This document shows positions 21,438 to 27,720 of a stretch of DNA of 35,080 nucleotides, piece by piece. Source of the DNA: Gammaproteobacteria bacterium (GTDB lineage Bacteria > Pseudomonadota > Gammaproteobacteria > Steroidobacterales > JABDKV01). The stretch covers positions 1 to 35,080 of the forward strand of contig JAHEKH010000018.1 of assembly GCA_024638445.1 (NCBI GenBank), read 5' to 3'. The notes beneath the pieces are model-generated. The model ran no database searches. It was not told where the DNA came from and saw nothing but the letters and a program-made list of their open reading frames with translations. Numbering within the stretch: the first letter of the stretch is position 1; every line of letters starts with the position of its first letter. A program made the translations under genes and the position numbers.

Positions 21438-24272
21438 TCAATCACCGAAAAGCCCGGCCCAGCGCTCGATCACCCGGGCCCGCTCGCGGGAAAACTCCTC
21501 CGCCGGAACAACACCGGGAGCATCGGCCAGCGCCAGGCGGTGCAGCCGCTGCCGGAAACGCCGATAAATGTCGGTCATTTCCGCCGCAATTCCGGCATCC
21601 AGTATGTCCGCATCCGCCAGTGCCTCCAGCTGCCGGATGTTGTCGCTGTAGCGCACCAGCTCGGGGTGCCCGGCGGCACCGGCCAGCACCCGGTACTGGA
21701 CCATGAACTCGATGTCGGTCAAACCGCCCGGGTCGCGCTTGATGTCGAATTGACCCGGTCCGCCGCCACGCAGTTCGCGGCGCATGCGGTCGCGCATTTC
21801 CAGCACGTCTTTGCGCAGCGTGGCAGGGTCGCGCGATGCGGTCAGCACTGCCCGGCGGATTGTCTCGAAGCGCCCGCACACCGCGTCGCTGCCGGCCAGC
21901 GCCCTTGCGCGCAGCAACGCCTGGTGTTCCCAGGTCCAGGCGGACTGTTGCTGGTAGTGCTCGAAGGCATTGACCGAACTGACCAGCGGGCCGCCCTTGC
22001 CGGAAGGACGCAGCCGCATATCGACTTCGTACAACACGCCGGCCGCGGTCGTCGTGCTCAGCATGTGCAGCAGGCGCTGGCCGAGGCGGGCGAAATAACG
22101 CACATTGTCGAGAGCATCGGGCCCATCGCTGCACTGGTTCTCGCCCTCCGAGTCGTGCAGCAGAACCAGGTCGAGATCCGAGGCATAGCCCAGCTCCAGC
22201 CCGCCGAGCTTGCCGTACCCGACGACCGCAAAACCCGCCTCGCGACGCACCTCGCCGGGACCGCAACCCGGACGACCATAGCGGCGGCGCATTTCGCCGG
22301 CGGCCAGCTCAACCGTCCGGGCCAGCACGAGCTCCGCGATATCGGTGAGACGATCGCTGACCTTCATTAGCGGCAGGGCACCGGACAGGTCCGAAACCGC
22401 CACCCGGAACACGGAGGCCTGCTGGAACAATCGCAACGCTTCCATCTGCCGCTCGAGGTCATCGTCCTCGACACCGTCAAATCGTTGCTGCAGCTCGGAA
22501 GCCAGGTCCGCGCGGGTGGGTGGCGTTTCGAAAATCCGCGGATCGATCAACTCGTCGAGCAGAATCGGGTGCTGTGCGACGCGACGGGCGATCCAGGGAC
22601 TGGCCGCACAAAGCGTCGCCAGTCGCTCCAGCACGGCGGTATTCTCGTTCAGCAAAGCAAAGTACGCGCTTCGCCGTCCAACCGCTGCGATGATGTTGAG
22701 CAGCTGGCTGACGACGGCGTCCGCCTGGTCCTGGCGGCCGGCCAGCCGCAGGATCTTGGGAATCAGCTCGTCGAGACGCTTGCGTCCGCGGCGGTCCAGG
22801 TGCCGGTACTGACTGCTGTCGTGAAGGGTCTTGAGCTGCCGCTTGACCACCGCCGGGTGAGCAAAACCCAGCTCCGCCAGCCGTTCCCCGGCAGCATCAC
22901 TGCCGGGATCCCCGGTCCACAGCGCCTTTATCACGTCGGTATGACCGGGATCACGGGTGACCGGCACGACGGATTCGAAATGGCGCGTTACGGTAGCGCG
23001 AACCTGTTCAAGCGTAGCGGCCAGGGCGTCCCAACTCTCGAGACCCATGGCATGAGCGACCCGGGCCCGGCCGGTTTCATCTTCGGGCAGCCGGTGAACC
23101 TGCTCGTCGCGCCAGAACTGCAGCCGGTTTTCCACCTGTCGCAGGAAAAAATAAGCATCAACCAATTCTCCGGCGACCGGCCCTTCGAGCCAGCGCTGCT
23201 CGGCGAGGCGCGGCAGTACCGCCAGCAGCGAGGGGTTGCGTAAGTCCGGGTCGGCGCCACCCCGGAGCAACTGGAAGCTCTGCGCAATAAACTCGATTTC
23301 GCGAATACCGCCCGGCCCCAGCTTGACGTCGTTGTGCCGGTCGCGGCTGTTGACGTCAGCGGCGATCAGCGCATGCATTTCGCGGAGCGACTCGATGACG
23401 CCGAAATCGAGATAACGACGATAGACAAAAGGCCTGACCAGCGCAGCGAACTGTTGCCGGCAATCGTCGCGGCCGTTGAGGGCCCGGGCCTTGACGTAGG
23501 CGTACCGCTCCCACTCCCTGCCATGTTGCTGCAGGTAGGTTTCAAAGGCAGCAAAACTCAGCGCCAGCGCACCGGTAGTGCCGAACGGGCGCAGCCGCGT
23601 ATCGACCCGAAACACGAAACCGTCACCGGTCGGCTGGTTGAGTATCCGGATCAGGTGCTGCGCAATGCGCGCGAAATAGCGGTCGCTTCCAAGCGGCCTT
23701 CCGCCGTCGCTGGTCCCGCTTTCGGGGTACAGGAACACCAGGTCGATATCGGACGAAAAATTGAGCTCGCCACCGCCGAGCTTGCCCATGGCAATGACGA
23801 TCAGTTCCTGCACATCGCCACTGCTGTCATACAGCTGACCATGCCGGGACTCAATTTTCGCCGTCGCCTGACGCAGCGCCGCACCGATGCAGGCCTCGGC
23901 CAGCCGAGACGTGGCCGACAGCGTTTCACGCAGACCGGCGCTGCCGACGAGATCGCGCCACGCAATCTGTGCCATAAGACGGTTTCGCAGCCGGCGTAGT
24001 TCGCCCATGAAGGCGTTCTCGTCTTCACCGATGTCGAGTGATTCGAACGCGGTCGCAATTGCCGGGGCCTGTGCCGACTCGGCCGGCAGCGCGGGGTGCC
24101 GCAGACACTGTGCCGCAACGAAATCACTGCAGGCGAAAACATGGCCTGCCAGGGCGTGCAGTTGCGGATCCGGCAATTCGCCCGCGGCATCCGCCCAGCG
24201 TTCTGCCTTCTGCGCGGCGGCAACCGCGAGTATGTCGGGAAGCGGATACTTCCCGCGGAGACCCTCGATCAT
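21438..24272 (-). CDS. glnE: Bifunctional glutamine synthetase adenylyltransferase/deadenylase
   Basis: Two GlnE nucleotidyltransferase domains: VIAMGKLGGGELNFSSDIDLVFLYP and VVGYGKLGGLELGYASDLDLVLLHD. Also GPGGIREIEFIAQSFQLLRGG and DPGGLTDIEFMVQY. Confidence 0.97.
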   Translation of the reverse strand: MIEGLRGKYPLPDILAVAAAQKAERWADAAGELPDPQLHALAGHVFACSDFVAAQCLRHPALPAESAQAPAIATAFESLDIGEDENAFMGELRRLRNRLMAQIAWRDLVGSAGLRETLSATSRLAEACIGAALRQATAKIESRHGQLYDSSGDVQELIVIAMGKLGGGELNFSSDIDLVFLYPESGTSDGGRPLGSDRYFARIAQHLIRILNQPTGDGFVFRVDTRLRPFGTTGALALSFAAFETYLQQHGREWERYAYVKARALNGRDDCRQQFAALVRPFVYRRYLDFGVIESLREMHALIAADVNSRDRHNDVKLGPGGIREIEFIAQSFQLLRGGADPDLRNPSLLAVLPRLAEQRWLEGPVAGELVDAYFFLRQVENRLQFWRDEQVHRLPEDETGRARVAHAMGLESWDALAATLEQVRATVTRHFESVVPVTRDPGHTDVIKALWTGDPGSDAAGERLAELGFAHPAVVKRQLKTLHDSSQYRHLDRRGRKRLDELIPKILRLAGRQDQADAVVSQLLNIIAAVGRRSAYFALLNENTAVLERLATLCAASPWIARRVAQHPILLDELIDPRIFETPPTRADLASELQQRFDGVEDDDLERQMEALRLFQQASVFRVAVSDLSGALPLMKVSDRLTDIAELVLARTVELAAGEMRRRYGRPGCGPGEVRREAGFAVVGYGKLGGLELGYASDLDLVLLHDSEGENQCSDGPDALDNVRYFARLGQRLLHMLSTTTAAGVLYEVDMRLRPSGKGGPLVSSVNAFEHYQQQSAWTWEHQALLRARALAGSDAVCGRFETIRRAVLTASRDPATLRKDVLEMRDRMRRELRGGGPGQFDIKRDPGGLTDIEFMVQYRVLAGAAGHPELVRYSDNIRQLEALADADILDAGIAAEMTDIYRRFRQRLHRLALADAPGVVPAEEFSRERARVIERWAGLFGD

Positions 24273-24416: not shown

Positions 24417-25670
24417 ATGTCCGGCGATTCCGACAATATCGACGACTCTGTAATCGAGGCACTGCGCCCGCAGGAGCGTCGCTATGACGTGGCAATCGAT
24501 AAAGACATGGTCCTGTCAGTCCTGCCCAACGGCGTAAAAACCTGGACCTGGGTATATGACGACCCGGATAACCCGCACCGCAAGACACTCGGGATCTACC
24601 CTGACATGACGCTCGAAGACGCCAGGAAATCGCTCGGCGCCGAAAAGGCCGCCTACCGGCAGGCCGACGAAGCCGAGCCTTCATTCGTGATTCGCGATGG
24701 CCGGATCGAACCCGCTCGGGGGGGTATCACCCGGTCGCAGCTGCCGATCATTGCCGGTGCCGTCGGCGCGGTCGTGGTTGCAGCCCTGGCCTGGCTGCTG
24801 TTCGGCCGTGGCGGAGATCCTGCGCCGGCGGCGGCAGGGGTCGCAGACACTCCGGCCGCCCCGGCACGCACCGCGCCTGAGCAAGCTGCGGCAACCACTG
24901 ATGCCGCGAAGCCGGCCATGGGGTCGCAGCCCGAGCAAGCGATGCCTGCAGGGCCGGACAACGGCAGCGCCACGGGAGGCAATCCATCTGCGGTCCCCGG
25001 TAGCGCAGACCCGATCGTTGCCGAGATGGAGGCGCAGGTCGCAGCGATTAACGAAAGGCTCAACGCCGAGCTGGAACGCATCAAGGCGATATCCGACGGC
25101 AACGCATCGAACACCCAGCCAGCAGTTACCGAAATCCCTGCGGCGGACAACGCCAGTCCTGACATCCAGCCGGCAGCGGCCGAAACGAACCGCCCTGCGC
25201 CCGCCCGCCAGCCCGCCGTAATTCCGCCGCCTGAGCCCGTACCGGCTGCACCGGTAACAGCAGCGCCGGTGACGGCGGCGGCGGTCTTGCCAGCCGCAGG
25301 GGAACCCGCCGCGCAACCGGTCACCGACCCGCGGGTGGCGCGGGCCATACTGACCACAACGGTGATCGACCGTGAACCGGCCGACGACCTCGGTAACACG
25401 CTGATCGGCAGCAGCGTCAGCGAACAGGTGTTCTACTTTTTCACCGAGTTACGCGACCTGGGCGGCCAGCGCGTTTACCACCGCTGGATTCATAACGGCA
25501 GCGTCATGGCCGAGGTGCCGTTTACCGTCGGCGAAGGCGCCTGGCGCTGGCGGGTCTACTCCAGCAAGACCTTCATTCCGGAGCTCGAGGGAGACTGGCG
25601 GGTCGATGTCGTGCTCGGCGACGGCACCCTCCTGCACAGCCAGCCGTTCCTGTACTCGATCGGCTACTAA
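24417..25670 (+). CDS. DUF2914 membrane protein with N-terminal integrase arm-type (DUF4102-like) domain
   Basis: N-terminus SVIEALRPQERRYDVAIDKDMVLSVLPNGVKTWTWVYDDPDNPHRKTLGIYPDMTLEDARKSLGAEKAA; one TM helix (LPIIAGAVGAVVVAALAWLLFG); Pro/Ala-rich linker; C-terminal ARAILTTTVIDREPADDLG...VFYFFTELRDLGGQRVYHRWIHNG...WRVYSSKTF...GDWRVDVV. Confidence 0.85.
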   Translation: MSGDSDNIDDSVIEALRPQERRYDVAIDKDMVLSVLPNGVKTWTWVYDDPDNPHRKTLGIYPDMTLEDARKSLGAEKAAYRQADEAEPSFVIRDGRIEPARGGITRSQLPIIAGAVGAVVVAALAWLLFGRGGDPAPAAAGVADTPAAPARTAPEQAAATTDAAKPAMGSQPEQAMPAGPDNGSATGGNPSAVPGSADPIVAEMEAQVAAINERLNAELERIKAISDGNASNTQPAVTEIPAADNASPDIQPAAAETNRPAPARQPAVIPPPEPVPAAPVTAAPVTAAAVLPAAGEPAAQPVTDPRVARAILTTTVIDREPADDLGNTLIGSSVSEQVFYFFTELRDLGGQRVYHRWIHNGSVMAEVPFTVGEGAWRWRVYSSKTFIPELEGDWRVDVVLGDGTLLHSQPFLYSIGY

Positions 25671-25683
25671 AAAACACCCGCCC

Positions 25684-25715
25684 AAAAAAAACCCCGGCCG
25701 AAGCCGGGGTTTTTT
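25684..25715. terminator. Bidirectional rho-independent terminator
   Basis: AAAAAAAACCCCGGC-cgaa-GCCGGGGTTTTTT between the convergent DUF2914 gene and groEL. Confidence 0.93.

Positions 25716-25762: not shown

Positions 25763-27720
<1,958 letters not shown>

Follow-up and report, generated by a model that had tools for sequence, protein, structure and literature searches.

An integrase-type arm domain joined to DUF2914 in a predicted trans-envelope protein family with an apparently reduced DNA-binding surface

In regulators of the ToxR/CadC type, the DNA-binding domain is a winged helix-turn-helix. The DUF4102/PF13356 arm of the IntSXT-type tyrosine integrases is known from the structures 3JTZ, 3JU0, and 3RMP, and its presence in a tyrosine recombinase has been described as strongly predictive of phage or ICE mobility (PMC8138268). 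Our literature search returned nothing on the function of DUF2914 or on DUF4102 together with a transmembrane segment. Here, we analyzed a 35,080-nucleotide stretch of DNA (hereafter, the window), in which a 417-residue open reading frame joins such an arm to a transmembrane (TM) helix, a Pro/Ala-rich linker, and a DUF2914 domain (Table 1). A preliminary description had read this protein as a membrane-bound, DNA-binding regulator, resembling ToxR and CadC in topology, that senses an envelope signal.

Table 1. Coordinates of the arm-DUF2914 gene, its segments, and its neighbors in the window
Feature	Position	Strand	Basis
Arm-TM-linker-DUF2914 gene	24417..25670	+	ATG open reading frame; Pfam above cut-off; same four segments in relatives
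Integrase-type arm domain, PF13356, residues ~8-80, predicted cytosolic	24417..24686	+	Pfam, PDB search, AlphaFold, Foldseek
Single predicted TM helix, residues 111-129, N-in	24747..24803	+	Hydropathy, positive-inside rule
Pro/Ala-rich linker (P+A 45%), poorly conserved	24804..25316	+	Composition, ortholog comparison
Predicted periplasmic DUF2914 domain, immunoglobulin-like beta sandwich	25317..25667	+	PF11141, model, Foldseek
glnE-like gene (name presumed), divergent neighbor, synteny conserved	21438..24272	-	Open reading frames and flank comparison
groEL and groES (names presumed), convergent neighbors, synteny in part of the relatives	25763..27720	-	Open reading frames and flank comparison
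GC-rich hairpin with adjoining A and T runs, located between the gene and groEL	25685..25715	.	Sequence, folding

A Pfam scan of the 417-residue protein revealed PF13356 (Arm-DNA-bind_3) at residues 10-73, scoring 32.7 bits (35.6 bits when the domain was scanned alone; cut-off 27 bits), and PF11141 (DUF2914) at residues 351-411, scoring about 63.9-66.8 bits (curated cut-off 23.6 bits), and nothing beyond these two, a recombinase domain included. The coordinates, residues, and order of the domains are exactly those given in the preliminary description, and the protein, in which no catalytic recombinase domain follows the arm, would not be classed as a tyrosine integrase. Likewise, neither the Pfam scan nor Foldseek matched a helix-turn-helix family, the arm fold being found instead, and a cytosolic helix-turn-helix of the ToxR/CadC type appears to be absent. 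The TM segment (hydropathy 2.58 over 19 residues) has a net charge of +2 before it and -1 after it, and a single-pass, N-in topology is predicted from hydropathy and charge, in agreement with what had been proposed. The linker that follows spans 173 residues. Residues 108-265 (window:24417-25667) also gave a match to the NCBIfam conjugal transfer protein TraP, which at 20.8 bits is far under the cut-off of 135 and is probably compositional. Downstream of the gene, the hairpin folds at -21.7 kcal/mol and is likely a bidirectional terminator between the convergent gene and groEL; a scan for consensus promoters and terminators returned nothing above chance, and the hairpin did not appear in its output.

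Comparison of the arm by sequence and fold revealed a kinship to integrase arms. A single-sequence search of the PDB returned 3JTZ and 3RMP (E = 4e-5) and 3JU0 (E = 1e-4), each of which is an integrase arm, and a profile built from 17 arms of the family matched the same three structures at ~2e-11 and no other PDB structure significantly. The AlphaFold model of the arm, computed from an alignment of the window, fusion, and arm-TM sequences from which integrases were left out, displayed a short helix followed by four strands and a long C-terminal helix (pLDDT 86, pTM 0.73). In a Foldseek search with this model, 3JTZ was the best match (E 1.2e-5, TM-score 0.82 of the target), and the significant matches were limited to 3JTZ, 3RMP, and 3JU0. 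Matches in the phage and plasmid collections span the arm only and are integrases wherever annotated. The domain thus belongs to PF13356 by descent, on profile and fold alike, and the kinship to tyrosine integrase arms, which the preliminary description had suggested verifying by profile and structure prediction, was confirmed.

In a tree of 62 arms, all 18 arms of the fusion proteins and of their arm-TM relatives (described below) grouped together, with no integrase among them and a branch support of 95%. The closest integrase arms by identity (32-46%) are mostly of the RRxTLG type, and tree and identities together suggest a single capture of the arm from an integrase of that type. The 18 family arms carry a mean net charge of -1.3 (-5 to +4), whereas 43 canonical integrase arms carry +8.1 (integrases about +8, +4 to +16) and the seven arms of the nearest, RRxTLG, subfamily +8.9 (5 to 16). 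The charges of the family and of the RRxTLG arms do not overlap (p = 1.3e-4, for 18 against only seven sequences), and the gap was unchanged after clustering at 50-90% identity. Alignment positions 27, 33, 41, and 45 (S34, V40, D48, and N52 of the window protein) are basic in 71-100% of the RRxTLG subfamily and in 0-11% of the family, and at position 10 the basic share drops from 100% to 22%, with R17 retained in the window protein. The absence of the W-R-x-K-Y-R basic strand could look decisive but was rejected as an argument: R37 and K39 of the canonical arms are missing from the RRxTLG subfamily too, which leaves net charge and positions 10, 27, 33, 41, and 45 as the basis of the case. Retained across the family are R22, K41, and R55 (R or H at 54), with K41 and R55 highly conserved, and the RR[RKQ] cluster ahead of TLG, a basic ridge at positions 47-49. 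Judged by DNA-facing residues that we infer, and that do not come from a complex, the DNA-binding surface of the family arm appears much reduced, and the basic surface of a functional integrase arm seems to be missing. The conserved K41 and R55 make some contact with nucleic acid or phospholipid possible, and a low net charge would in principle be compatible with DNA binding.

These findings bear on the earlier proposal of a membrane-tethered one-component regulator, whose arm would sit on promoter DNA while DUF2914 senses an envelope signal. The arm homology and fold that it presupposes are genuine, an N-in single TM helix with a periplasmic domain is predicted, and R22, K41, and R55 show the same conservation that is seen in the RRxTLG arms. 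The charge difference from integrase arms, the loss of the basic residues at window positions 34, 40, 48, and 52, a pI of 4.7 for the cytosolic part of the window protein, and the existence of arm-TM forms without a sensor domain all speak against such a regulator, which we consider unlikely. The loss of DNA-contact residues, which the preliminary description had itself named beforehand as an outcome that would overturn its proposal, is largely what the putative contact positions reveal.

The window genome harbors a paralog with both domains (L033:4013-5083, minus strand; copy B, the window gene being copy A), and the sample of the order yielded arm-DUF2914 proteins from 11 further genomes (G003, G004, G008, G016, G019, G022, G030, G042, G049, G066, and G073) and on one further contig, L105, so that the spread of the fusion, another point raised in the preliminary description, places the domain combination far beyond chance. 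Overall, 39 of the 147 genomes of the order gave matches, many of these being integrases. Within the window's family, all three well-covered relatives carry a pair of copies, one copy being truncated where its contig ends, and the only member without any copy is a genome that is 70% complete. Outside the order, no arm fusion was found among the longer DUF2914 reading frames fetched from the class sample; DUF2914 itself was present in 100 of 369 class genomes and in 24 of 396 of the order, the latter count including multi-TM proteins of the DUF5924 type.

In each of the four family genomes with copy A, and in two genomes of family f5, the glnE-like gene lies divergently beside this copy. On the other side, groEL-groES was found in the window, in G016, and in both f5 genomes, as well as beside the fusion on L105, and was not seen in the flanking sequence retrieved for G030 and G042. 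Copy B is accompanied by a YigB-like HAD gene, with msrA nearby and, in some genomes, endonuclease V as well. This synteny of both copies marks the gene as an old chromosomal resident and not a mobile insertion, and the best reading is of a vertically inherited gene whose product resides in the inner membrane. A search for functionally linked neighbors returned only the genes just named, with no linkage outside the order, and the neighbor comparison revealed neither a partner gene nor a conserved operon for copy A. At copy B (L033:3294-5083), the YigB-like HAD phosphatase gene lies 35 bases downstream of the paralog on the same strand. In Escherichia coli, yigB follows xerC, and the resemblance between the two gene orders is probably a coincidence. 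The L105 contig (L105:2286-5511, with groES, groEL, and the fusion) is filed under Candidatus Polarisedimenticolaceae, and its GroEL is 78-82% identical to gammaproteobacterial GroELs; it is possibly a mis-binned contig.

The source assembly is 82% complete in 208 contigs, which might raise the suspicion of a pseudogene, a chimeric assembly, or a mobile-element remnant. Such an artefact is refuted by the independent orthologs, with the same architecture recurring in 11 more genomes from the order, and further by the conserved synteny, a purifying pattern of substitution, and the lack of any recombinase remnant; we regard its probability as negligible.

Comparison with the closest ortholog revealed 79% identity in the arm, 62% in DUF2914, and 30% in the linker, with dN values of 0.15, 0.29, and 0.98, respectively, at a dS of 1.2-1.6 that is near saturation (about 1.4 for the arm). 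As the best-conserved segment, the arm is a working part of the protein. In three species of genus g13 (family f12), arm-TM proteins occur without DUF2914, the reading frame ending just past the TM helix, with a stop at a matching position in all three. These tail-anchored loci are L015:1393-1872, L018:1498-1884, and one on L021. Since the arm-TM forms have no periplasmic domain, the envelope-signal sensing that had been attributed to DUF2914 cannot be the common function of the whole family. The forms could be decayed copies, although matching stops in three species argue against decay. The same observations weigh on a further possibility, namely that the RR[RKQ]TLG ridge lies on membrane phospholipids and orients the TM anchor, leaving DUF2914 as the working part. 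The ridge is indeed conserved while other basic residues were lost, the arm adjoins the TM helix, and DUF2914 also occurs alone behind N-termini resembling signal peptides; that the arm is better conserved than DUF2914 between close orthologs, and that one genus has the arm without DUF2914, makes this a very doubtful explanation.

The DUF2914 model is an all-beta sandwich (pLDDT 96.6), for which Foldseek returned RhoGDI, UNC119, and CARDB as best matches with a TM-score of about 0.5. The model supports an immunoglobulin-like fold and nothing narrower; lipid binding, as the RhoGDI and UNC119 matches might suggest, was rejected, scores of this size being read only as an Ig-like sandwich. Other DUF2914 proteins have N-termini resembling signal peptides, are multi-TM proteins of the DUF5924 type, or have a single TM helix behind other cytosolic N-termini. 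Three genomes encode RMF-like N-termini on the TM-linker-DUF2914 plan, with Pfam RMF E-values of 0.003-0.03 that lie under the cut-off, and a profile of the three sequences placed RMF structures at the top of a PDB search (E = 6e-4). These loci (L058:685-1692, L083:1688-2590, and L101:4545-5363) possibly represent a membrane-bound RMF-like family. A short, recurring LKIKIKL-like strand motif precedes the TM helix in the single-TM DUF2914 proteins of L067, L071, L075, L078, L079, and L047, and a large reading frame (L141:832-3147) contains two DUF2914-like stretches followed by apparent ankyrin repeats. Together with the arm-TM forms, the RMF-like and short N-termini reveal that the two ends of the protein are modular.

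The RMF-like proteins also raise the possibility of a membrane tether for RNA or ribosomes, recruited to the inner membrane by the arm or, in other families, by the RMF-like domain, and the conserved RR[RKQ] cluster before TLG would suit such a role. The RMF-like forms, however, belong to other families and are only weakly similar, further DUF2914 proteins have just short or Arg-rich N-termini, and the arm as a whole is near-neutral to acidic; we think this tether rather improbable.

We favor instead a trans-envelope tether or scaffold, in which the exapted arm serves as a cytosolic protein-docking module and not as part of a DNA-bound regulator, a proposal on which we find ourselves evenly divided between acceptance and doubt. 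The protein would extend from the cytosol through the inner membrane and a flexible Pro/Ala-rich linker to the periplasmic DUF2914 beta sandwich. Its arm would dock onto a protein, or may bind another copy of itself through a sheet face that, from the alternation of residues along the strands, is now neutral or hydrophobic, and the DUF2914 end would contact a component of the envelope. More tentatively, a DNA-binding fold of mobile-element origin may have been captured once in this gammaproteobacterial order, lost the charge for DNA binding, been turned into the part of a trans-envelope protein that docks in the cytosol, been duplicated, and, in one genus, come to stand alone as a tail-anchored form; in that case, DUF2914 would form the envelope side of a modular family whose cytosolic end takes up different small nucleic-acid-binding folds (the arm and RMF-like domains).

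All parts of the protein come from known families, but the literature searched contains no description of the combination of arm and DUF2914, of the loss of basic surface from the arm, or of the arm-TM form. A chromosomal family that carries the arm and is not a recombinase could be mis-annotated as an integrase or a DNA-binding protein. If the favored reading is true, the family would show clearly how a DNA-binding fold from mobile elements can be exapted for a membrane role that does not involve DNA, and it would provide an initial way into the function of DUF2914, which is common as an envelope domain.

Compared with the IntSXT-type arms, the window arm is homologous in sequence and fold, with strands followed by a long helix, and the motifs P-N/S-G-x-K-x-W and LG-x-YP are common to both. 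Unlike these integrases, the window protein has neither a core-binding nor a catalytic domain, a TM helix following the arm instead, and the arms of its family are near-neutral to acidic, chromosomal, and syntenic, with no sign of a mobile element. The nearest arms, those of the RRxTLG subfamily (L020, L022, and L181-L185; identity up to 46%), share with the family the motifs RY[DE], K, and RR-x-[TS]LG, but have net charges of +5 to +16, mostly R or K at positions 27, 33, 41, and 45, and full-length integrase reading frames. The other single-TM DUF2914 proteins have the same TM helix, linker, and C-terminal DUF2914 as the window protein and, in place of the arm, an RMF-like, a short LKIKIKL, or an Arg-rich N-terminus. 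With ToxR and CadC, finally, the protein shares the predicted plan of a cytosolic N-terminal domain, one TM helix, and a periplasmic C-terminal domain, whereas the place of their winged helix-turn-helix is taken by an arm fold that appears to have lost most of its basic surface.
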